From positions 1-55,114 of the forward strand of contig JAGTRW010000028.1 in NCBI GenBank assembly GCA_018262095.1: a stretch of 55,114 bases of DNA. The letters are read 5' to 3'. Shown in pieces: positions 39,816-51,835 of this stretch. The position numbers and the translations under genes were made by a program. The notes under the pieces are model-generated. The model made no database searches and was not told where the DNA came from. It was given only the letters and a program-made list of their open reading frames with translations. The DNA is from Pseudomonadota bacterium. GTDB lineage: Bacteria; Pseudomonadota; Gammaproteobacteria; Burkholderiales; Rhodocyclaceae. Position 1 is the first letter of the stretch. Every line of letters begins with the position of its first letter.

Positions 39816-42800
39816 TCATCCTTTCGCCGCAGCGGGGTCGCGGACGTCGCAGCGCAGGCAGCGGCGGCTCTCGGCGTGCGCCATTTCGGGCGTCAGTCCG
39901 AGCAGCACTTCGGCATCGCTGGTCCGGCGCTGCAACACCGCGAGTTCAGGCGACGAATTGCGCGCACCGCCCTCGGGCTCGAGCGCTACGCGTTGGGCGA
40001 CGGCAAAGGCGCCGAGTACCTGTGCGAGGCGATCCTCGCCACAGAGGATGGCGTCGATCGCTCGCGCCGCATCCTTGCCGGTCGCCATCGTCGACGACAC
40101 GTTCGACGCGCCGGTCACCAGATCGCCGCCGGCAAAGACGCGCTGACGGTTGGTTTCATAGGTGACCCAGTCGGCCGCCGCAGTACCGTTCTCGCGAACG
40201 TGAATTCCGCAGCGGCGCAACGGTTCGACGTCGGGCCGCTCACCGATCGCCAGGATCAGGTTGTCACAATCGACGACAAAGGTATCGCCGGTCGACACCG
40301 GACGCCGGCGGCCGTCGAGCGTGTAATCGCCGAGCCTGGTTCGCATCAATTCGATGCCGGTGACTCGCCCGCGCTGGTCGCAAACGACGCGTTGCGGCGC
40401 GACCAAGAACATCAGCTTGACGCCCTCCATTTCCGCATCGCGCACTTCCTCGGCGATCGCCGGCATGTCCTGGCGTTCGCGGCGATAGGCGATGGTCACC
40501 GCGCAGCCGGCGCGTAGCGCGGTTCGCGCCGAATCGACCGCAGCGTTGCCGCCGCCGATGACCACAACCCGCTTGCCGATCGTCGTCGGCTGATCGCGCG
40601 CGACCTGTTCGAGAAAATCGATCGCATGCCAGACGCCCGGCGATTCCTCGCCGGGGACACCCGCGCTCGCCGCACTCCACGTTCCGGTCGCCAGGAAGAC
40701 GGCGTCGTTGTCGGCCTCGAGCACGTCGAGCGAAACGCCTGCACCAAGCTTTTGGCCAAAGCGGAAGGCGACACCCAGGCTTTCGATGACGTCGATTTCC
40801 TGCCTGAGCATTGCCCGGGGAAGGCGGTATTGCGGCAGCGAGTAACGCAGCATGCCGCCAGCCGCCTCGCGCGCCTCGAAAACAGTCACCTGGTGCCCGA
40901 ACAACGCGAGATAAAAAGCCGCGCTAAGCCCGGAGGGACCGGCGCCGACGATCGCGACGCGCTTGCCGCTGGACGGCAGGCGACGCCTGGCAAGTCGAGC
41001 CTTGATCTCACCCAGCAGCGCGCCCGCAAAGACCTGGTCGGCGATGAAGCGATGGACTTCACGCATATTGACCGGCGCATCGACGTGAGCTCGACGGCAC
41101 TGGCTTTCGCACGGATGCTGGCAGATTCGCCCGGTCGATCCGGGCAGCGGGTTGTCGAGCCAGATCAACTCGGCGGCCTGCGCGATTTGCCCGCTCCGGG
41201 TCAATTCGAGGAAGAGCGGAATGCGCATGTGCAGCGGGCATGAATTCTCGCACGGCGAGAGGAAGAGCGAATCGCAGACGCCAGCGCGGCAGCGATGCGC
41301 GCGCAAGTGCTCGTCGTACTCACGGCGGAAATGGCGTAGCGTCGTGAGCACCGGATTGGGCGCGCTCTGACCGAGCCCGCACAGCGACATTTCGCGGATC
41401 ATCGGCACGAGTTCTTCGAGCAGTTCGACGTCGGCGTCGCTGGCTTTGCCGGCGCTGATCTTGTTGAGCAGGGTCAGCGCCTGATCGAGCCCGGCGCGAC
41501 ACGGGATGCATTTTCCGCACGATTCGGCGTGCGTAAACTCCAGAAAATAGCGCGCGACATCGACCATGCAATTGTCTTCGTCCATCACCACCATGCCGCC
41601 CGAACCCATGATCGCGCCGAGCTGCAGCAGCGATTCGTAGTCGATCGCGACGTCGAAACTCGATGCCGGAATACAGCCGCCCGACGGCCCGCCCGATTGC
41701 ACCGCCTTGACTCGCTTGCCATCGGGAGCACCTTGGCCGCCCTGACCTATTTCGTAGATCATCGTCTTGAGTTGCGTTCCGAGCGGTAGTTCAACGAGGC
41801 CGGTGTTGACGACCTTGCCGACCAGCGAGAAGACCTTGGTTCCCGAGCTGCTCGCTGTCCCGGTTTGCGCGAACCACGATCCACCGCGCTCGATGATCAC
41901 CGGGATGTTGCACCAGGTCTCGACGTTGTTGATGTTGGTAGGCATTCCCCACAGACCCTTTTGCGCAGGGAACGGCGGACGCGGGCGCGGGCGTCCGGCG
42001 TGGCCCTCAAGCGAGGCGATCATCGCCGTCTCTTCGCCGCAGACAAAGGCGCCGGCGCCCTCGACGAGCTTGATGTCAAAGTTGAAATCGGTTCCCAGGA
42101 TGTGTTCGCCGACCAGCCCGAATTGGCGCGCCTCGGCGAGCGCGTGTTTCAAGCGCTCGACGGCGAGCGGATACTCGGCGCGCAAGTAGACGATGCCTTC
42201 GCTGGCGCCCATCGCGAATGCGCCGATCAGCATGCCTTCGATCAGCATGTGCGGATCGCTCTCGATCTCGTTGCGGTTCATGTACGCGCCGGGGTCGCCC
42301 TCGTCGGCGTTGCAGATGATGTATTTCTGTCCGTCTTGCAGTCCACTGCCGGCCTTGCGCAGCAGGTCCCACTTGACGCCGGTCGGATAACCGGCGCCGC
42401 CACGTCCGCGCAGTTTCGATTTCTTGACCTCCTCGATGATCTCGCCAACGCCCGGCTTCTGCATCGCCTGGTAGAGCGCATGATAGCCGCCGACCGCGAT
42501 GTATTCCTCGATGTCTTCGGGATTGATCAGACCGCAATTTCTGAGAACGATTTTCTTCTGCCCCTTGAAGAAAGCTATTTCGTCCCAGTGCGGCAGGTCG
42601 GCAAAACCGCGGCCGTACATCACGTGACCGGTCAGGTGGTCCCATTCGTCGATCCGGCAGATCGCCTTGTCGAGCGGCGGCTGACCCGCCGCGATGGATT
42701 CGACGATGGCGAGCGCATCTTGCGGCCTGACCCGACCGAGAACGATCAATGGGAAACCGGGAAGATGGATGTTGACCAGCGGTTCGGCGGCGCAGAAACC

Positions 42801-42998
42801 GAAGCAACCGAGCTTGGTCAGTTGCGCGTCGACACCACAGCGCTTGAGCGCGTCTTTGATCGCGTCAAACACGTCGCGCGCGCCGTTGCCGATGCCGCAG
42901 GTACCCAGGCCGACACCGATACGCGGTTTGCCCGGCAGTATCTTCATCATCCCCGTGCGTCGGGCGTCGTGCAATCCATCGAGATCGTGAATTTTCAT
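39816..42998 (-). CDS. hoxF: HoxF-like diaphorase fused to a GltD/NfnB-like flavoprotein
   Basis: The protein has 1060 residues; ordinary HoxF has about 600. Residues 25-100 form a thioredoxin-like [2Fe-2S] domain (GTCGIGNGA, GCFGFC) of the HydB/HndC kind. Residues 140-570 are a NuoF-like FMN/NAD module: GRGGAGYPTGVKW (198), NADEGDPGAYMNR, an SLBB segment, and N3-type cysteines 494, 497, 500 and 540. From about 570 a glutamate synthase beta-like half follows: cysteines 583, 587, 626, 630 and 634, FAD loop VGAGPSG (684-690), NAD(P) loop GGGNAAVD (815-822), YRRERQDMPA and AGGDLVTG. The start overlaps the hoxE stop (ATGA). It likely joins NADH and NADPH chemistry, possibly by flavin bifurcation. 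Confidence 0.93.
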   Translation of the reverse strand: MKIHDLDGLHDARRTGMMKILPGKPRIGVGLGTCGIGNGARDVFDAIKDALKRCGVDAQLTKLGCFGFCAAEPLVNIHLPGFPLIVLGRVRPQDALAIVESIAAGQPPLDKAICRIDEWDHLTGHVMYGRGFADLPHWDEIAFFKGQKKIVLRNCGLINPEDIEEYIAVGGYHALYQAMQKPGVGEIIEEVKKSKLRGRGGAGYPTGVKWDLLRKAGSGLQDGQKYIICNADEGDPGAYMNRNEIESDPHMLIEGMLIGAFAMGASEGIVYLRAEYPLAVERLKHALAEARQFGLVGEHILGTDFNFDIKLVEGAGAFVCGEETAMIASLEGHAGRPRPRPPFPAQKGLWGMPTNINNVETWCNIPVIIERGGSWFAQTGTASSSGTKVFSLVGKVVNTGLVELPLGTQLKTMIYEIGQGGQGAPDGKRVKAVQSGGPSGGCIPASSFDVAIDYESLLQLGAIMGSGGMVVMDEDNCMVDVARYFLEFTHAESCGKCIPCRAGLDQALTLLNKISAGKASDADVELLEELVPMIREMSLCGLGQSAPNPVLTTLRHFRREYDEHLRAHRCRAGVCDSLFLSPCENSCPLHMRIPLFLELTRSGQIAQAAELIWLDNPLPGSTGRICQHPCESQCRRAHVDAPVNMREVHRFIADQVFAGALLGEIKARLARRRLPSSGKRVAIVGAGPSGLSAAFYLALFGHQVTVFEAREAAGGMLRYSLPQYRLPRAMLRQEIDVIESLGVAFRFGQKLGAGVSLDVLEADNDAVFLATGTWSAASAGVPGEESPGVWHAIDFLEQVARDQPTTIGKRVVVIGGGNAAVDSARTALRAGCAVTIAYRRERQDMPAIAEEVRDAEMEGVKLMFLVAPQRVVCDQRGRVTGIELMRTRLGDYTLDGRRRPVSTGDTFVVDCDNLILAIGERPDVEPLRRCGIHVRENGTAAADWVTYETNRQRVFAGGDLVTGASNVSSTMATGKDAARAIDAILCGEDRLAQVLGAFAVAQRVALEPEGGARNSSPELAVLQRRTSDAEVLLGLTPEMAHAESRRCLRCDVRDPAAAKG

Positions 42999-43537
42999 GG
43001 CGCCGCTCCGGTGTCTGCGTCGATCGCCGCGACCAGTTTGCGCAATCTCAAATCGCTGACGTGGCCGTAGATTTCGTGGTCGATCGCCGCGACCGGCGCC
43101 AGTGCGCACTGGCCGAAACAGGCGACGGTGCGGATGGTGAGTTGACAATCGGGCGTCGTAAATGACGTCGCCGCGCCGCATTCGGACCCGACTTCGTCAT
43201 CGTCGTCGCGAAACCCGGCGGCGGCCTTGAGTCCATCGAGCAATTGCTTCGATCCGCGCGTGTGACACGCCGTGCCACGACAAACGGTGACCGTGTGCCG
43301 GCCCTGCGGCTTGAGATTGAAGAAAGCGTAGAAGGTGATGACGCTCATAAGCTGCGAACGCGCGACGCCCATCTTCTGCGCGACGAACTCGTGCGTTTCC
43401 GGCGGCAAATACTTGAGCGGATGAAGTTGCTGGATTTCCTCGAGGATGGCAAGCACGTCGCCGGTCCGCTCGGGATGACGCGCGATGACTTCATCGATGA
43501 TTTCTTCAGCGAGAGGTTTGCTTTGCGCAGCGATCAT
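42995..43537 (-). CDS. hoxE: Diaphorase subunit HoxE (NuoE-like)
   Basis: The protein has 180 residues and a thioredoxin-like [2Fe-2S] fold. Ligands appear in VCRGTACHTRGS and ACFGQCALAP. The N-terminus (GDVLAILEEIQQLHPLKYLP) is typical of NuoE. HoxE docks on HoxFU and mediates electron flow to quinone or ferredoxin partners in cyanobacteria. An acidic run (DDDDE) lies between the two ligand pairs. It precedes the fused hoxF with ATGA overlap. Confidence 0.93.
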   Translation of the reverse strand: MIAAQSKPLAEEIIDEVIARHPERTGDVLAILEEIQQLHPLKYLPPETHEFVAQKMGVARSQLMSVITFYAFFNLKPQGRHTVTVCRGTACHTRGSKQLLDGLKAAAGFRDDDDEVGSECGAATSFTTPDCQLTIRTVACFGQCALAPVAAIDHEIYGHVSDLRLRKLVAAIDADTGAAP

Positions 43538-43549
43538 CTCAACCCCCTT

Positions 43550-44038
43550 TCACTCGCCGAATAGGGCAACTGCCTCGTCGATCCGCTGCGCGGTTTCGGG
43601 AGAAATGGTCTCGCCCGTGGCGAAGCGAAAAGCCGGGATCCCGACAACCCAGGCATCAGGAACGCTGCCGCCGAGCCGGCCGACCAGAGCGAGCAGGCGC
43701 GCCGGATCGCCGTGATGACCCGGCACGCTGTGCGCATCGTCAGCACCGATTCGTTCGATGCGAAGCTTGGCGCCGGGCTCCTTGGCCGCGTAGGCGTCAA
43801 CAAACACCACTTGCGCCGCACGTGCAATATCTTCGGCCAGCTCGGGAGTCAGTTGATGAGTGACGATCACGCGTATCGGCGAGTCTCGCGCGGCGATCAT
43901 CGTCGCCGCGCGGATTCCGGCGCCGTCGTCGCCGCGCAGCGCATTGCCGTAGCCGATGATCAACAGCGCCAGGCGCGGCGACATGACTGGTCGCCGAAAC
44001 TCGTCGCATCGCGCGGTGAAATCCGGACACGTGATCAT
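43550..44038 (-). CDS. hoxW: Hydrogenase maturation endopeptidase HoxW
   Basis: The protein has 162 residues. IIGYGNALRGDDGAGIRAA is the family motif with the first nickel-site acid; VVFVDAYAA and the later GHHGDPARLLAL supply the others. HoxW cuts the HoxH C-terminus after nickel insertion. The ATG at 44038 lies 2 bp after the hoxH stop and suits coupling; an internal ATG at 43984 (MSPRLALLIIGYGN) is an equally good match to the family start. Neither has a strong ribosome site. Confidence 0.9.
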   Translation of the reverse strand: MITCPDFTARCDEFRRPVMSPRLALLIIGYGNALRGDDGAGIRAATMIAARDSPIRVIVTHQLTPELAEDIARAAQVVFVDAYAAKEPGAKLRIERIGADDAHSVPGHHGDPARLLALVGRLGGSVPDAWVVGIPAFRFATGETISPETAQRIDEAVALFGE

Positions 44039-45480: not shown

Positions 45481-46020
45481 TTAGCCGAAGCGCAGCGTGC
45501 TTCCTGGATCAGGCAATCGGCCTTCGAGCAGCGCCGCGAGTGCGGTGAAAATGCTTTCGGCATGCGGCGGACAACCGGGAACGAAGAGATCGACCTTGAC
45601 GATCTCGTGAATCGGCTTTGATTTGGGCAGCAGGCGCGGGATAACTTCGCTCGGGATCGATTGATTGAACGAGGCATTTTCAAGGTACGCACGGCGCAGG
45701 ATTTCGTCGCGGCTGAAGTAATTGCGCATACCGGGAACGTTACTGGTCACCGCGCAATCGCCGAGCGCCGCCAGCAGCCGGGTGCGCGACCTGACAATCT
45801 TGAGCTTGTGCAGGTCGTCGTCATTGCTCACTGCCCCTTCGACGAAGGTCAGATCGACGTTTTCCGGAAAGACCTTGGCGTCGACCAGCGGGCTGTACAC
45901 CAGATCGATCTGGTCGGCGATGGCGAGCAGCCGTTCGTCCATGTCGAGAAATGACATATGGCAACCCGAACAGCCATCGAGCCAGACGGTCGCAATCCTA
46001 ATTTTGTTCATGGTCGACAT
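45481..46020 (-). CDS. hoxY: [NiFe]-hydrogenase small subunit HoxY
   Basis: The protein has 179 residues, the compact HoxY length, and no Tat signal, so the enzyme is cytoplasmic. The proximal [4Fe-4S] cluster ligands lie in WLDGCSGCHMSFLD, LGDCAVTSN and VPGCPPHAES. It is the first gene of the operon. No sigma54 site was found upstream, in contrast to Ralstonia-type hox operons, so another promoter is likely. Confidence 0.94.
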   Translation of the reverse strand: MSTMNKIRIATVWLDGCSGCHMSFLDMDERLLAIADQIDLVYSPLVDAKVFPENVDLTFVEGAVSNDDDLHKLKIVRSRTRLLAALGDCAVTSNVPGMRNYFSRDEILRRAYLENASFNQSIPSEVIPRLLPKSKPIHEIVKVDLFVPGCPPHAESIFTALAALLEGRLPDPGSTLRFG

Positions 46021-46246
46021 CCCCCATGATGCTCAAGCGGGGAAAAAACTGCTCGCGCTTCGCTATTCGGCTAGCTTTCGCCCTATTTCAGTAAGCACTG
46101 AGCAACGATTCGAGCCGCCAGCCAAGGTTCGCCGCGCCCCACAAGAATAGGAAATTCAAGCGTCGATTACAAAGTATCTTTGCCGCCGGAGCCTTGGCTC
46201 GTATCCGATAATCGCCAAAGACAAAAAGTTGAGTTATGCTTGCAGC

Positions 46247-46882
46247 ATGTGCAAACAATTTGCTCTCTACTGCCCTCTAGACAAGATCCGGGAGCATTTC
46301 AAGATTCCCGATGACGACCTTGATTTCTACCCGCGCTACCATCTGGCCCCCGGCCAGGTGGCGCCGATCATCCGCACGGACGCTGCGAACAACCGCTGCC
46401 TCTCTCTGGCGCTGTGGGGCTTGATTCCCGCCTGGACCGAAGTCACCGAAACACTCGTCAGACTGATCAACGCCAAGGTCGAAACGGCGGCGATCAAGCC
46501 AATGCTCCGAAATGCCTTCAGGCAAAACCGCATTCTGATTCCTGCCGACGCATTCTACGAATGGAAACCGACGGCAGGTCAGCGACAAACCTATCTGATC
46601 CATATGAAGAACAACCAACCCTTCGGCATGGGCGGTCTGCTTGAGTTCTGGCATGGCCCCACGGGCGAAGTTGCCACCTTCTCAATCCTGACCACGGCTC
46701 CAAACGCGCTGATCGCCGAGATTCACAATCGCATGCCGGTCATCATCCGCCCCGAGAACTACGCTGAATGGCTGGACCCGAACGCCAATGACGTGAATCG
46801 CCTGCATGCTCTGAGCGCCCCCTATCCCGAAAGCGATATGGTTGCGTATCCAGTCAGCGCGGAGAAAGAGGGATCGGAGTAA
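46247..46882 (+). CDS. SRAP/YedK-type abasic-site response protein
   Basis: The protein has 211 residues. Starting at ATG 46247 the second residue is cysteine (MCKQFALY), the SRAP nucleophile exposed after Met removal; a TTG-started extension at 46229 would bury it. NAKVETAA holds the conserved Asn and Glu, and IHNRMPVII the histidine. These proteins form a thiazolidine link with abasic sites in single-stranded DNA and protect them. Most relatives read MCGRF; here it is MCKQF. No SOS box was seen. Confidence 0.9.
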   Translation: MCKQFALYCPLDKIREHFKIPDDDLDFYPRYHLAPGQVAPIIRTDAANNRCLSLALWGLIPAWTEVTETLVRLINAKVETAAIKPMLRNAFRQNRILIPADAFYEWKPTAGQRQTYLIHMKNNQPFGMGGLLEFWHGPTGEVATFSILTTAPNALIAEIHNRMPVIIRPENYAEWLDPNANDVNRLHALSAPYPESDMVAYPVSAEKEGSE

Positions 46883-46917
46883 CGGAACGAGCACGAGTCC
46901 AGCCCCTCTAGAGCGCA

Positions 46918-46955
46918 AGAAAAAAGCCCCTGAAACCATTGGTATCAGGGGCTTT
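46918..46955 (-). terminator. Terminator after tRNA-His
   Basis: In the minus direction AAAGCCCCTGA and TCAGGGGCTTT (46945-46955 with 46923-46933) form an 11-bp stem with an 11-nt loop and a T run. It also faces the SRAP gene end. Confidence 0.85.
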
Positions 46956-46959
46956 GATT

Positions 46960-47036
46960 TGGGGCGACGTACGGGGCTCGAACCCGTGACCCTTGGAATC
47001 ACAATCCAATGCTCTACCAACTGAGCTAACACCGCC
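46960..47036 (-). tRNA. tRNA-His (anticodon GTG)
   Basis: Minus-strand cloverleaf with the extra 5' G paired to C73, as is diagnostic for tRNA-His. The anticodon loop is GATTGTGATTC with anticodon GTG, the D-arm is AGCTCAGTTGGTAGAGC, the T-loop TTCGAGC, and CCA is encoded. Confidence 0.96.
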
Positions 47037-47270
47037 ATTGTTCTGACAAACTCTGTGCTACGAGAACTGACACTTTCGATCGGTCAGGCCAAACAAAAAC
47101 CATAAGCCATTGATTCAATTAGAATCAGAACTCGCGAAAGCTGCTTTGTTCTCAACCGGACCGCATTCTACCGTACAAATATTGCGCAGTCCAATTTTGT
47201 GCGCTTTTTCTCTGCTCGGCACCGGTAAAAAAACGGATTGACGACGACTCGGTCCGACCACGTGCGATTC

Positions 47271-48527
47271 TCACTGTGCTATTCGGCCCCGCCGATTGCC
47301 TGTCTTGACGCTGAGCACCATCGATACGCTGATCACAACCCCGACCGCAGCGATCGGCCAGAATTTCCCGCTCCCCCCCGATCCGGCACGGGCGATTAAG
47401 TCGATAGCAAAGCCGAGCGCCGGCGCGAACAACATCTTGGCGAAGGTTTGCGACTGGCTCTCGACCGACAGGATGCTGGTGCCGTGTGTTTCGGGTGAAT
47501 AGGCGTCGAAACGGCTGATGATCAACGGACGCCAGGCGCCTTGCATCAGGAATAACAGGAAAAACAGGACCAACACTGGATAGTAGAAATCCAGAGCAAG
47601 ACAGGGCAACATCGCCAGGTAAATCAGCGTCATTCCCCACCACATGAAACCGCTGGCGCCATCATCGTCGCCAAAACGCTGGCTCAACCGATGTGACTGG
47701 CGACTCGACCAGGCCGAACCGAGATGAAAAATAAAATAGACCGCACCGATCAGCAAGGTGCTGCGCTTGTCATCGCCAAGCGTGAGCAGCAAGGGGACGC
47801 CCAGAACCATCGCCCTGATCATCGGTTGCAGGTAATCCTTGACGACGTCGAAGAAGCCTTCAAAACTCATCGATTCGACCATCAGACGACGCAAACCGGC
47901 AATCTTTATCGAATCGCGCAAAGTCTGCCACATATGGACAAAAATACGTTTGATGCTCGCCTCCCCTTCCGGTCGCCCGTCGAGTTCCTTCGGATAGGTG
48001 CACAGCGAGATGAAACCGATGCTGTAGGGGACGAGCGCCGCCAAGAAAAGGGTATTGAGATGGTCGGTGCAATAAGCGATGGCTGTCGCTATCGGAATGG
48101 AAACGGCTGAGCCGATTTTCGACCACGAGCGCGTGTAGCCATAGACCTTGGTCTTCTCGTCCATCCGGCCGTTAAGCCGCAACCAGGTGAAGATCATCGA
48201 CTTGTGCGTCCCTTCGCGAAACGCCTCGCCGATGCCGAAGAAAAACACGGCGATGAAAAGGTAGGGAAGTTGATCCGGACATAGACCGAAACACAGAAAG
48301 GCGATCATGTACGCCAGATACGAGACCAGCATGCAGCGGCGGCGCCCATACAGGTCGGCAATCGCGCCGGCAGGAATATTGGTCGCGTTGATGCAGAGTT
48401 CCCGAAAGCCGATCAAAAAACCAACCGTGGCAAAGGAGTTCCCGCTGCCGAGCAGAAACAGCATCATGAATGGCTCGAAGTAGCGCTGGTTCTTCAGGAA
48501 GCCATAGAGAGAAAAGCGGAAGATCAT
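47271..48527 (-). CDS. Major facilitator superfamily transporter
   Basis: The protein has 418 residues and about 12 hydrophobic segments. The loop between helices 2 and 3, GAIADLYGRRRCMLVSYLAYM, is the MFS motif A. A longer cytoplasmic loop falls mid-protein (KELDGRPEGEASIKRIFVHM). No substrate can be assigned. The gene lies between tRNA-Arg(TCT) and tRNA-His on the same strand, splitting what looks like a tRNA cluster. Confidence 0.82.
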   Translation of the reverse strand: MIFRFSLYGFLKNQRYFEPFMMLFLLGSGNSFATVGFLIGFRELCINATNIPAGAIADLYGRRRCMLVSYLAYMIAFLCFGLCPDQLPYLFIAVFFFGIGEAFREGTHKSMIFTWLRLNGRMDEKTKVYGYTRSWSKIGSAVSIPIATAIAYCTDHLNTLFLAALVPYSIGFISLCTYPKELDGRPEGEASIKRIFVHMWQTLRDSIKIAGLRRLMVESMSFEGFFDVVKDYLQPMIRAMVLGVPLLLTLGDDKRSTLLIGAVYFIFHLGSAWSSRQSHRLSQRFGDDDGASGFMWWGMTLIYLAMLPCLALDFYYPVLVLFFLLFLMQGAWRPLIISRFDAYSPETHGTSILSVESQSQTFAKMLFAPALGFAIDLIARAGSGGSGKFWPIAAVGVVISVSMVLSVKTGNRRGRIAQ

Positions 48528-48591
48528 AAGCCAGCCACCCAGTCAACGAAAAACAGCGGACGATCAATCCGCTGTATCGATTGGTGTTGCT

Positions 48592-48668
48592 TGGTACGCC
48601 CGGAGGGACTCGAACCCCCGACCCCCGGCTTAGAAGGCCGGTGCTCTATCCAGTTGAGCTACGGGCGC
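48592..48668 (-). tRNA. tRNA-Arg (anticodon TCT)
   Basis: Minus-strand cloverleaf. Acceptor GCGCCCG pairs with CGGGCGT (one G-U pair), the D-arm is AGCTCAACTGGATAGAGC, the anticodon loop CCTTCTAAG carries TCT, the T-loop is TTCGAGT, and CCA is encoded. Confidence 0.96.
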
Positions 48669-48728
48669 GAATTACGAGACGGCGGAGAATCCCCCTCCTC
48701 CGGTACCGCTTTTTGCTGCCTGAAATAC

Positions 48729-48805
48729 TGGTCGGGGCGGTGGGATTCGAACTCACGACCCTCTGCTCCCAAAGCAGATGCGCTACCAGGCTGCGCTACG
48801 CCCCG
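48729..48805 (-). tRNA. tRNA-Pro (anticodon TGG)
   Basis: Minus-strand cloverleaf. Acceptor CGGGGCG pairs with CGCCCCG, the D-arm is AGCGCAGCCTGGTAGCGC, anticodon stem CTGCT/AGCAG holds loop TTGGGA-like with TGG, the T-loop is TTCGAAT, and CCA is encoded. The 5' C is normal for tRNA-Pro. Confidence 0.96.
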
Positions 48806-49200
48806 AGAAGCGCGCATTCTACAGAGCAGGCCGTCCAAGGTCAATCGCACACGGCTTTTTTATTGATCGCTCGTAAATCACAGGAGCGCAAGAGAAAATC
48901 GCATTGGTGCAAAATACAAGGCGTAGCGGTCTATTCAGAGCATCACCAGAACGCATGCCTAGACTGGCGCGCTATTGATTGCTTGCAGTGTGACGATATT
49001 TCTGATATTTAATCGCCTCCTTGCAACAACAAACGGATGGTTCCTGGACATGCATGAAGAAACGCTCGCCAATAAAATTGTTTTTGCATAGACAAAAACC
49101 AAAATCAGGCGCTTATGTTATGTTCCATATAATTAACACCAAATCTTCATCATCATTTGGTCAAGCTACAAATAAAATCACTTTAGAATTAGGTGCTTAG
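48806..49200. other. AT-rich region upstream of dksA
   Basis: This 395-bp gap holds no gene that could be supported. The last 180 bp are AT-rich and probably hold both the dksA promoter and the promoter of the divergent tRNA genes. The stretch ACCAAATCTTCATCATCATTT near 49139-49158 forms part of an imperfect inverted repeat with the following TTGGT. No clear -35/-10 pair was chosen. Confidence 0.4.
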
Positions 49201-49626
49201 ATGGATATAGAACAGTTCCACAAACATTTCACTCCCTATGTTGCCAAAAAGGGCGAGGAATACATGAGCAGCAAACAACTGGCTCATTTCCGCACCATCC
49301 TCGAGACACTCAAGATGGAGCTGATGAAGGACATCGAGCGCACGGTACATACCATGCAGGACGAGGCGACGGTATTCGCCGACCCCAATGACCGCGCCAG
49401 TCAGGAAACCGACATTGCCATCGAATTGCGCAACCGCGACCGCGAACGCAAGCTGATCAAGAAGATCGAGGAAACGATCGATCACATTGAGAGCGGCGAC
49501 TACGGTTACTGCAACGGCTGCGGCGTCGAGATCGGTATCAAGCGGCTCGAAGCACGTCCGACGGCAACGCTCTGCATCGATTGCAAGACGCTTGAGGAAG
49601 TTCGCGAAAGACAGGTCGCCAAGTAG
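49201..49626 (+). CDS. dksA: RNA polymerase-binding transcription factor DksA
   Basis: The protein has 141 residues. A coiled-coil hairpin (about 25-95) carries DPNDRASQETD, with the acidic tip residues that reach the polymerase secondary channel. A four-cysteine zinc finger follows (YCNGCG and LCIDCK). It works with ppGpp in stringent control. The in-frame ATG at 49264 would remove the N-terminal helix, so 49201 was kept. A terminator follows. Confidence 0.94.
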   Translation: MDIEQFHKHFTPYVAKKGEEYMSSKQLAHFRTILETLKMELMKDIERTVHTMQDEATVFADPNDRASQETDIAIELRNRDRERKLIKKIEETIDHIESGDYGYCNGCGVEIGIKRLEARPTATLCIDCKTLEEVRERQVAK

Positions 49627-49660
49627 GCGACTACGTAAGCGACACTTCAAGTCGCTCAAT

Positions 49661-49688
49661 AAAAAAGGACGCCGAGGCGTCCTTTTTT
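49661..49688. terminator. Bidirectional terminator between dksA and pnp
   Basis: AAAAAAGGACGC and GCGTCCTTTTTT form a near-perfect stem with a 4-nt CGAG loop; A/T runs on both sides let it work for dksA (plus) and pnp (minus). Confidence 0.92.
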
Positions 49689-49708
49689 ATTGTCCTGCGT
49701 GAAACGAT

Positions 49709-51835
49709 TTACGCCTGGGGTTCGACCGGCTTGGCCGCCACACCGCCCTCTTCCACGCTCACCGCTTTCATCGACAGACGGACGCGACCCTTTTCGTCGG
49801 CCTCGAGCACCTTGACGCGAACTTTCTGGCCTTCCTTGAGGTAATCAGCAACGGCATTGACGCGCTCGTTGGCGATCTGCGAAATGTGCAGCAGACCGTC
49901 GCGACCCGGCAGGATGCTGACGATGGCGCCGAAATCGAGCAGCTTGAGCACGGTGCCTTCGTAGATCTTGCCGACTTCGACGTCGGCGGTAATCGCCTCG
50001 ATGCGCGCCTTGGCGGCATCAGCCGCTTCGCCGCTGACCGAAGCGATGGTGATCGTGCCGTCTTCCTTGATGTCGATCGTCGTTCCGGTTTCTTCGGTGA
50101 TGGCGCGAATCACCGCACCGCCCTTGCCGATCACGTCGCGGATCTTCTCCGGATTGATCTTCATGGTGTAGAGGCGCGGCGCGTAGGTCGACACTTCTTG
50201 GCGCGGACCGGCGGCCGAACTCTGCATCTGCGCCAGGATGTGCAGACGCGCTTCCTTGGCTTGCGCCAGCGCGACCTGCATGATTTCCTTGGTAATGCCC
50301 TGGATCTTGATGTCCATCTGCAACGCGGTGACGCCCGTTTCGGTACCGGCGACCTTGAAGTCCATGTCGCCGAGGTGATCTTCGTCGCCCAGGATGTCGG
50401 TCAGCACGGCAAAACGGTTGCCCTCCTTGATCAGCCCCATGGCGATACCGGCGACGTGCGCCTTGAGCGGCACACCGGCATCCATCAACGCCAGCGACGA
50501 ACCGCAGACCGAAGCCATCGAGCTCGAACCATTGGATTCGGTGATTTCGGAAACGACGCGCATGGTGTAGGAGAAGTCTTCCGGCTTCGGCAACACGGCG
50601 ATCATCGCGCGCTTGGCCAGACGACCGTGGCCGATTTCACGACGCTTGGGCGTACCGACACGACCGCATTCGCCGGTCGCGTAGGGCGGGAAGTTGTAAT
50701 GCAGCATGAAACGCTCGCGGTATTCGCCGGCCAGCGAATCGATGATCTGTTCGTCGCGGCCGGTACCCAGCGTGGCAACGACCAGCGCCTGCGTTTCGCC
50801 ACGCGTAAACAGCGTCGAGCCGTGGGTGCGCGGCAGAACGCCCGAACGGATGGCGATCGGGCGAACGGTACGCGTATCGCGACCGTCGATGCGCGGCTCG
50901 CCGCCCAGGATGCGGCTGCGAACGATCTTGGCTTCGACGTCGAAGAACAGATTTTTGATAGTGTTGGCGTCGGGGGCATTGTCGCCCGCCGTCAGCACAT
51001 CGACCGCCTTGTCGGAAATTTCGCGGATGCGCAGCGTGCGCGCCTGCTTGTTGGCGATGCGGAAGGCGTCCTGCAGGTCGGCTTCGACCAGCGCGTTGAG
51101 CTTGGCGACCAGCTCTTCGTTCTTGGCGGCGGGCGCCCAATCCCATTCCGGCTTGCCGGCTTCTTCGACCAGTTCGTTGATGGCGTTGATCACCACCTGC
51201 ATCTGCTCGTGGCCGTAAACCACGGCGCCAAGCATCACGTCCTCGGGCAGAATGTCGGCTTCCGACTCGACCATCAGCACCGCCGATTGCGTACCGGCGA
51301 CGACCAGGTTGAGCTGGCTGCTCTTGAGCTGCGTCAGCGTCGGGTTGAGCACGTACTGGCCATCGATATAGCCGACGCGGGCGGCGCCGAGCGGGCCATC
51401 AAACGGGATACCGGAAACGGCCATCGCCGCCGAAGCGCCGATGATCGCCGGGATGTCCGGATCGACTTCCGGGTTGAGCGAAACGACCATCGCGACAACC
51501 TGGACTTCGTTGTAAAAACCTTCGGGGAAGAGCGGACGCAGCGGACGGTCGATCAGGCGCGAGGTCAGCGTTTCCTTTTCCGAAGGGCGGCCTTCGCGCT
51601 TGAAGAAGCCACCGGGAATCCGGCCGGCGGCATACGTTTTTTCAATGTAGTCGACGGTCAGCGGGAAAAAATCCTGTCCGGGCTTGACCGACTTGTTGCC
51701 GACCACCGAGACCAGCACGACCGTATCATCAACCGTGACCATGATGACAGCACCGGCCTGACGGCCGATCTCACCGGTTTCCAGCGTCACCTGGTGAGCA
51801 CCATAGGTGAACGATTTTTTGGCGATAGTAAACAT
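49709..51835 (-). CDS. pnp: Polyribonucleotide nucleotidyltransferase (PNPase)
   Basis: The protein has 708 residues. It holds two RNase PH domains ([35 protein letters not shown]), the all-helical linker, a KH domain ([20 protein letters not shown]) and an S1 domain ([20 protein letters not shown]). The ATG at 51835 follows GAGAGGAAATA. The enzyme degrades RNA 3' to 5' with phosphate. It follows rpsO as in most proteobacteria. Confidence 0.97.

Follow-up and report, generated by a model that had tools for sequence, protein, structure and literature searches.

A HydB-type subunit fused to a GltD-like flavoprotein in a [NiFe] hydrogenase operon: a candidate link between H2, NAD and NADP

Introduction

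In the HydABC hydrogenases, a Zn/B2 hinge bears a mobile ferredoxin arm with two clusters, which is taken as the exit to ferredoxin. We analyse here a gene in which this arm appears to have given way to another domain. The gene lies in a stretch of 55,114 nucleotides (hereafter the window; positions 1 to 55,114 of contig JAGTRW010000028.1, assembly GCA_018262095.1, a Pseudomonadota bacterium of the Rhodocyclaceae), and joins a HydB/BfuB-like half to a GltD/NfnB-like half within a hox operon. Judged from the encoded sequences, the operon would specify a soluble [NiFe] hydrogenase that probably exchanges electrons among H2, NAD(H) and NADP(H), with NADP in ferredoxin's place. On the roles of hinge, arm and FMN in bifurcation, a Zn-hinge model (PMC9499530) differs from a B2-cluster model (PMC8880783, PMC9304861), and it has been proposed that every Bfu-type enzyme joins a third reaction to those with NAD and ferredoxin (PMC9304861).

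Several described systems resemble parts of this locus. The NiFe-HydABCSL enzyme (NiFe-Bfu) of Acetomicrobium mobile (PMC8880783) has subunits HydL, HydS, HydA, HydB and HydC that correspond to HoxH, HoxY, HoxU, HoxF and HoxE. It is the best PDB match for HoxH, HoxE and HoxU of the window and the second best for the fusion protein, by less than 1 bit. Its HydB ends in the B3/B4 ferredoxin arm, whereas the fusion has a GltD domain there, and its HydA has 692 residues against 236 in HoxU. The Stn/Nfn-Bfu enzymes (StnABC and T. sibiricus NfnABC; PMC7483475, PMC10482914, PMC9304861) share with the window a HydB/HydC-like core and a GltD domain with flavin adenine dinucleotide (FAD) and NADP(H). 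Their chains are the best sequence matches of the back half of the fusion, and an RCLxC motif behind GltD is common to both. However, in Stn/Nfn-Bfu the GltD domain sits on the BfuA/NuoG-like subunit and the ferredoxin arm is kept, while in the window GltD sits on BfuB, replaces the arm and is combined with a hydrogenase. NfnAB is likened to the window by its NfnB (NfnL) subunit, which the back half resembles; the front half is HydB-like instead. Finally, the group 3d HoxEFUYH enzymes of cyanobacteria and C. necator share subunit names and the type of HoxYH, but their HoxF has neither the hinge ligands nor a GltD domain.

One gene with two halves

The fusion gene reads on the minus strand, from 42998 to 39816, as a stop-free translation of 1060 residues within a longer open frame of 1121 codons; the plus strand of the same interval is interrupted by stops. 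An initial annotation, made from the letters alone, had proposed such a single frame without stating its strand, and in this it was right. Pfam finds Complex1_51K (residues 190-365), NADH_4Fe-4S (479-563), Fer4_20 (564-656) and Pyr_redox_2 (679-966), and the motifs GRGGAG (at 198), CxxCxxC (494), GAGPSG (685, the FAD loop), GGGNAA (815) and YRR (838) follow in the same frame.

For comparison, a genome collection was scanned with the fusion protein. All homologue counts refer to the best 80 of at least 586 confirmed stretches, a sample and not a census, and phyla are as given in the record titles, which belong almost without exception to metagenome-assembled genomes (MAGs). Both halves are fused in one frame at 44 of these loci (L038-L078, L080, L091 and L097), some of them cut by contig ends and two, the drafts L073 and L074, with the frame broken inside the GltD half. 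A further 35 are HydB-type loci without GltD, and one (L079), whose contig ends at query residue 513, is not counted as fused. With the window, this gives 45 fusions, 40 of which make up our 40-row alignment; the HydB row L101 is excluded from the counts. The nearest relative, from Kiritimatiellae (L038), agrees at 70% over the protein and 73% in the front half.

By alignment and tree placement, the front half is a HydB/BfuB-type subunit and not an ordinary HoxF. It has what is asked of a BfuB, namely the NuoF core for flavin mononucleotide (FMN) and NAD together with the B1 [4Fe-4S] ligands (C494, C497, C500 and C540). In the PDB, the fusion matches T. sibiricus NfnB (9n5u_B) best, at 633.5 bits, followed by A. 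mobile HydB (7t2r_B) at 632.9 bits. In the latter, the B2 site is held by C438, C476, H525, C531 and C536 (PMC9304861), which align with C477, S515, H564, C570 and C575 of the window; a like site in T. maritima was interpreted as a Zn bound by three Cys and one His (PMC9499530), and Zn was also reported in the StnB linker (PMC10482914). The hinge set C477, H564, C570 and C575 is complete in every one of the 45 fusions and 38 HydB proteins and in none of 29 NuoF/HoxF rows, and HoxF of Acaryochloris and C. necator are likewise without it. The Bfu definition of the site lists three Cys and one His, plus Cys or Thr at the fifth position (PMC9304861); we counted the site as present on the first four ligands, most fusions having Thr at the fifth (C476 in A. 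mobile). At the N-terminus, where the B5 [2Fe-2S] cluster would lie, Cys 34, 65 and 69 are found in 44 of 45 fusions (one is cut), and column 39, the only fourth site checked, has no Cys.

Trees were quick searches with SH-aLRT supports, and several forks used here are below 95 (81, 93 and 94 among them). In the front-half tree that includes the short HoxF proteins described below, 22 fusion rows form one group (support 100) in a part of the tree otherwise holding only HydB (forks 81 and 93), and cyanobacterial HoxF groups with short Acidobacteriota HoxF (support 94). The initial annotation had likened the front half to HydB/HndC, in line with these matches and the tree, and had noted correctly that ordinary HoxF ends near 600 residues (602 in C. 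necator and 554 in Acaryochloris, by coding-sequence length). It had also named the whole a HoxF-GltD fusion. The fusion stands; the HoxF identity does not, given the grouping with HydB, the hinge ligands that are kept and the GltD domain that replaces the arm.

Directly after C575, the ferredoxin arm with its two CxxCxxCxxxC motifs (B3/B4) is present in 38 of 38 HydB proteins and in 0 of 45 fusions. In all 45 fusions, window included, the spacer between C575 and C583, the first Cys of the GltD half, is instead exactly seven residues long. The GltD domain is thus, on this alignment, a replacement for the ferredoxin arm and not an addition to it. That a frameshift or an assembly error near residue 570 had joined hoxF to gltD has a virtually nil chance, because 44 fused loci lie on other contigs and the junction is always of seven residues; no point in support of such an artefact was found. 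Nor did two separate genes come to light, as among the 81 loci compared no HydB gene is followed by a free-standing GltD gene. At L037 and L094, the (HoxU/BfuA-like) chain that comes after HydB contains, past its start, a GltD-like stretch, as in Stn.

The predicted cluster ligands of the GltD half are C583, C587, C626, C630, C634, H649, C1047 and C1050. The first five are present in 45 of 45 fusions, and the last two in 39 of 45, the other six being gapped or cut there. These last two Cys belong to an RCLRC motif found where StnC-type chains carry RCLEC behind the GltD domain; the region also matches, weakly (7.4 bits), the N-terminal cluster motif of NfnI-L (5jca_L). H649 aligns with StnC K170. 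This Lys is a ligand of the FAD-proximal cluster, and NfnB has Glu in its place (PMC10482914). Of the 45 fusions, 43 (the window and 42 loci) have His as the predicted ligand, and the Lys of Stn recurs only in L091 and L097. R725 aligns with StnC R239 and NfnB R201. GxGxxA loops are of the NADP(H) type (PMC7483475), and G815, G817, N818, A820, Y838, R839 and R840 are invariant in the 40-row alignment. With a two-cluster Cys set, an FAD loop and an NADP loop followed by YRR, the half has the marks of a GltD/NfnB NADP(H)-flavoprotein, and the predicted NADP site is well supported. This accords with the initial annotation, whose Cys set and FAD and NAD(P) loops recur in motifs, Pfam matches and invariant columns.

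Seven Cys would suffice for two clusters, and in NfnAB it is by way of the two NfnB clusters that ferredoxin receives its electrons (PMC10482914, PMC7483475). An enzyme linking H2, NAD, NADP and ferredoxin would fit both observations if ferredoxin docked, in the manner of NfnB, at the distal [4Fe-4S] cluster of the GltD half. We consider it improbable: the FAD-proximal ligand is His and not the Glu of bifurcating NfnB, and no NfnA-like protein is among the six operon products scanned.

An AlphaFold2 model built on the 40-row alignment (mean pLDDT 84.8, pTM 0.74) suggests the same division. In Foldseek searches of the PDB, the front half of the model finds BfuB chains of Nfn-ABC and HydABC (e.g. 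9bov_B, TM by target 0.94), and the back half finds the NfnI large subunit 5jca_L (TM by target 0.82) and StnC-type chains. The 50 rows listed align with the 1060 residues over 624 columns at most, and no row spans both halves.

The hydrogenase operon

Along the minus strand, Pfam and NCBIfam give the order hoxY-hoxH-hoxW-hoxE-hoxF(fusion)-hoxU, as the initial annotation had read it, with gaps of 15, -97 (the start of hoxW is uncertain), 12, -4 (the overlap of hoxE and the fusion gene) and 4 bases. Coordinates are collected in Table 1.

Table 1. Features of the fusion gene and the hox operon (window positions)
Feature	Position	Strand	Basis or remark
hoxY, [NiFe] hydrogenase small subunit, 179 aa	45481..46020	-	Pfam Oxidored_q6; Cys 17, 20, 89, 150
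hoxH, [NiFe] large subunit, 474 aa	44041..45465	-	Pfam NiFeSe_Hases
hoxW, maturation protease	43550..44038	-	start uncertain: ATG 44038 or upstream GTG 44137
hoxE, [2Fe-2S] thioredoxin-like subunit (BfuC/HydC/NuoE type)	42995..43537	-	Pfam 2Fe-2S_thioredx
Fusion gene, HydB/BfuB half and GltD/NfnB half, 1060 aa	39816..42998	-	frame, Pfam, PDB matches, model
HydB/BfuB-like half, residues 1-575	41274..42998	-	alignment to 7t2r_B
Seven-residue junction 576-582, last hinge Cys to first GltD Cys	41253..41273	-	constant length
GltD/NfnB-like half, residues 583-1060	39819..41252	-	Pfam Fer4_20, Pyr_redox_2; alignments to 9bov_A, 9n5u_A, 8oh5_C, 5jca_L
H649, non-Cys ligand place of FAD-proximal cluster (predicted)	41052..41054	-	alignment to StnC
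FAD loop GAGPSG, 685-690	40929..40946	-	motif, alignment
NADP(H) loop GGGNAA 815-820 and YRR 838-840 (predicted)	40479..40556	-	motif, alignment
C-terminal RCLRC (C1047, C1050)	39849..39860	-	alignments to 9bov_A, 8oh5_C
hoxU, BfuA-type wire, 236 aa	39101..39811	-	NCBIfam PRK07569 HoxU, 357.2 bits (cut-off 333)

HoxH holds both Ni-ligand motifs (RTCGIC at 60 and DPCLSCSTH at 442). Its best PDB match is A. mobile HydL (7t2r_D, 543.8 bits); the chain 5xf9_D of an NAD-reducing hydrogenase scores 427.9 bits. HoxH is 58.9% identical to HoxH of Acaryochloris and 43.9% to that of C. necator. In the HoxH tree, the window stands beside L038 (support 95) and with HoxH of other fusion-bearing genomes (96), a group that includes HoxH from operons with a short HoxF; Acaryochloris comes next (98). 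On this tree grouping, and despite the best PDB match being HydL, we assign HoxYH to the 3d type. Membership of group 3c was considered, from NCBIfam matches to VhuA and VhuG (for HoxY, F420_non_VhuG is the best), and rejected: both matches fall under their cut-offs, the PDB favours HydL and the tree favours cyanobacterial HoxH.

The longer frame of hoxW matches TIGR00072 (hydrog_prot) at 68.4 bits (cut-off 47.45). HoxE carries CRGTAC and CFGQC, the ligand motifs of a BfuC with its C1 [2Fe-2S] cluster, and its best PDB match is A. mobile HydC (7t2r_C). HoxU, with A. mobile HydA (7t2r_A) as best match, has cluster motifs and no GltD or H-cluster domain.

Distribution and partners of the fusion

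The fusion occurs in Acidobacteriota, Bacteroidota, Omnitrophota, Kiritimatiellota, Spirochaetota, Lentisphaerota, Verrucomicrobiota, Chloroflexota, Bacillota and Pseudomonadota, the last in two MAGs of the Ancalomicrobiaceae. The idea that it is confined to the window was therefore rejected. Within the phylum of the window it is nevertheless rare: in three overlapping draws of Pseudomonadota genomes (274, 120 and 398), the fusion appears only in the source genome among the matches listed. For the draws of 120 and 398 genomes, these are matches below 1e-180 and 1e-185; for that of 274, the list runs by E-value and its second row covers residues 27-587 only.

Its partners vary. The initial annotation had tied the fusion to hoxYH, a link seen at 13 of the 44 other loci, where hoxY and hoxH lie on the same contig (L038 even shares the order Y-H-W-E-F of the window). 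As an exclusive partner, hoxYH does not hold. At 14 loci, an H-cluster [FeFe] HydA stands instead of hoxU; all three motifs are seen at 13 of them, and L059 shows one before the contig breaks off. Pfam Fe_hyd_lg_C was found in all six of the 14 loci that were scanned for it. One locus (L097) has a molybdopterin enzyme in two frames beside the fusion. Ten, all from Acidobacteriota, lack hydrogenase genes on their contigs (L042, L046, L049, L050, L067, L071, L074, L075, L078 and L080), and six break off at contig ends with the partner undecided (L039, L051, L062, L064, L070 and L072).

At the 14 [FeFe] loci, one of them the outlying L091, the likeness is to the [FeFe] enzymes HydABC, but HydB bears GltD and not the ferredoxin arm. 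HydA of L054 is named by NCBIfam as an 'NADH-dependent [FeFe] hydrogenase, group A6' (876.1 bits, cut-off 765). The HydDB rule for groups A2 and A3 examines the protein encoded downstream of the catalytic subunit for the presence of GltD or NuoF (PMC5037454). As stated, this rule would miss the fusion, because in the [FeFe] loci it lies upstream of hydA.

Fusions with His649 come together as one group in the front-half tree (43 rows, support 100), with L091 and L097 outside. Within this single clade, the fusion protein stands beside either HoxYH (13 loci and the window) or [FeFe] HydA (13 loci): the [FeFe] branch has support 90, the branch of [NiFe]-linked and hydrogenase-free loci 94, and each also holds contig-end loci. 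A tree that also takes in the short HoxF rows does not settle the [NiFe]/hydrogenase-free branch. For the back half, a tree of 23 fused rows recovers both branches, each with support 97, and joins the 21 His649 rows at 99. Because the trees of the two halves agree, one ancestral fusion seems to have been retained as a unit while its hydrogenase was exchanged.

The two outlying loci may be separate fusions despite the same junction length. One, from Clostridiaceae (L091:373-5083), has Lys at 649 and an [FeFe] hydrogenase, falls outside the main fusion group in both half-trees and has the seven-residue junction. The other, from Chloroflexi (L097:8926-14997), also has the Lys ligand and is followed by a NuoG/molybdopterin enzyme in two frames, and with such a partner the fusion is not confined to hydrogenases. 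Separate GltD-like genes lie near the fusion in two places (L059:555-1802 and L097:16055-17314); in a GltD tree these group together, away from the His649 halves.

For the hydrogenase-free loci, HoxH was found elsewhere in 9 of 10 genomes (10 of the 11 searched, with that of L039 included), and we considered whether this HoxH serves them. We no longer rely on this link, as seven of the ten genomes have hoxEFUYH sets of their own (eight sets, L168-L175) with a short HoxF. The short HoxF (in the genomes of L046, L049, L071, L074, L075, L078 and L080) keeps the HydB-type hinge ligands and stops 10-16 residues past the last hinge Cys in the six ends read; the hoxF of L174 is in two frames, and in L169 and L172, which hold unread bases, the distance to hoxU (98 and 80 bases) is too short for a GltD domain. 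Having neither ferredoxin arm nor GltD, it represents a third state of the same position.

These separate sets weaken the claim that the fusion always serves a hydrogenase. Together with the ten loci, which read E-F(GltD)-U, they are what one would expect if the fusion were chiefly an NADH/NADPH transhydrogenase module that only sometimes docks on a hydrogenase. To this we give little credence, since 27 of the 44 loci have adjoining hydrogenase genes, six more are cut by contig ends, and the genes in the window form one tight operon.

A possible electron path

In the reading we favour, an enzyme that exchanges electrons among H2, NAD(H) and NADP(H), H2 would be oxidised at HoxYH, and HoxU and the B1 cluster would connect HoxYH with the FMN in the HydB-like half, where NAD(H) exchanges. 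HoxE would be placed by the FMN, as HydC is. The exit would run from the hinge through the two predicted [4Fe-4S] clusters of the GltD half to FAD and on to NADP(H). If NAD(H) and NADP(H) are coupled in one cycle, the most likely form of this reading and one to which we assign about two thirds of its weight, the reaction would be 2 H2 + NAD+ + NADP+ <-> NADH + NADPH + 2 H+. Our tentative proposal, on balance somewhat doubtful, is an electron-bifurcating hydrogenase free of ferredoxin that splits the electrons of H2 between NAD+ and NADP+, or joins those of NADH and NADPH to make H2, with His as the ligand of the FAD-proximal cluster and with a unit that is paired with [NiFe] or [FeFe] parts. 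The fusion, the hinge ligands, the missing ferredoxin arm, the GltD cofactor and NADP motifs and the gene neighbourhoods are observed directly; the electron path and the substrates used are inferred from them, and we infer bifurcation rather than plain equilibration because the hinge ligands are kept and GltD stands at the position of the arm.

Several observations weigh against the three-way reading and this proposal. The C-terminal ferredoxin domain with B3/B4 (IPR017896), one of the features of BfuB (PMC9304861), is absent, Fer4_20/GltD standing in that place, and bifurcation has been tied to the full cluster set B1-B5 (PMC9304861, PMC11406978), of which B3 and B4 are missing here. The HydB of S. 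wolfei, which is without B3/B4, does not bifurcate (PMC11406978). As to the hinge, many complex-I NuoF rows carry Cys, His and Cys at three of its columns (C575 is absent from all 29), the window has Ser, and three fusions have Ala, at the fifth B2 position, and the short HoxF retains the ligands though it is armless. Finally, the ten hydrogenase-free loci, with separate hoxEFUYH sets in seven of their genomes, suggest that the module may work apart from H2.

There is also the other form of the same three-way reading, in which FMN serves NAD(H) and the FAD of GltD serves NADP(H), both in equilibrium with H2, so that the enzyme is a hydrogenase and a transhydrogenase without bifurcation. The missing B3/B4, as in S. 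wolfei HydB, points this way, and in Stn the FAD of GltD is a non-bifurcating site (PMC10482914). Hinge ligands kept in 45 of 45 fusions are hard to explain without motion or coupling, an argument that loses force with the armless short Acidobacteriota HoxF. We regard this uncoupled form, a part of the three-way reading, as rather unlikely.

Genomic setting

The hox operon runs divergently from a gene for an SRAP protein (46229-46882), and genes for tRNA-His, tRNA-Arg and tRNA-Pro lie within 3 kb. The G+C content is about 0.60-0.66 over the operon and falls to about 0.55 over positions 46000-50499. PNPase, a radical SAM protein with DUF3362 and SRAP are among the genes at the flanks. Because these are ordinary chromosomal genes, the operon seems seated in a betaproteobacterial chromosome; the flanking TypA is 71.3% to that of Neisseria, the best of 53 records in a plasmid collection.

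Elsewhere in the source genome, hypD is on a different contig (C20) from the hox operon, and about 19 kb from it lies a second, group-4-like [NiFe] large subunit (Complex1_49kDa and NiFeSe_Hases). Use of NADPH in a Calvin cycle was considered and rejected: the sole RuBisCO_large match in this genome is a frame of 436 residues that matches the catalytic-domain model only, and is taken as RuBisCO-like. On contig C37, this protein adjoins a frame that resembles, by eye, a transporter permease, and it is perhaps an enzyme of a sugar-acid pathway.

Meaning for bifurcating enzymes and H2 metabolism

The architecture is real and present in many phyla, and its formal membership in Bfu fails on one tested feature, the absence of B3/B4. 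A full-text literature search (titles, abstract openings and selected passages) returned no description of a NuoF/HydB/BfuB-GltD fusion, and the main text of the Bfu classification (PMC9304861) contains none of the terms GltA, GltD, glutamate synthase, fused or fusion. The same paper lists 17 Bfu clades without assigned function, and a fusion-type member is possible among them.

An armless version that bears NADP would test what hinge, arm and FMN each contribute to bifurcation. If the proposal is true, predictions would shift for uncultured Acidobacteriota, Bacteroidota, Omnitrophota and Spirochaetota, in which hydrogenases go by names such as 'NADH-dependent' (that of L054) that omit NADP. 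If NAD(H) and NADP(H) are coupled, the cell could evolve H2 from NADH, aided by NADPH as the stronger donor, or obtain NADPH from H2 with the reduction of NAD+ as the pull. With E' values of -280 and -380 mV (Table 1 of PMC9304861), the H2 pressure computed for equilibrium is about 3 Pa with NADH as sole donor, about 147 Pa with NADH and NADPH together and 7.2 kPa with NADPH alone. Coupling NADPH to NADH would therefore raise the H2 pressure that still allows H2 to form from the first of these values to the second.

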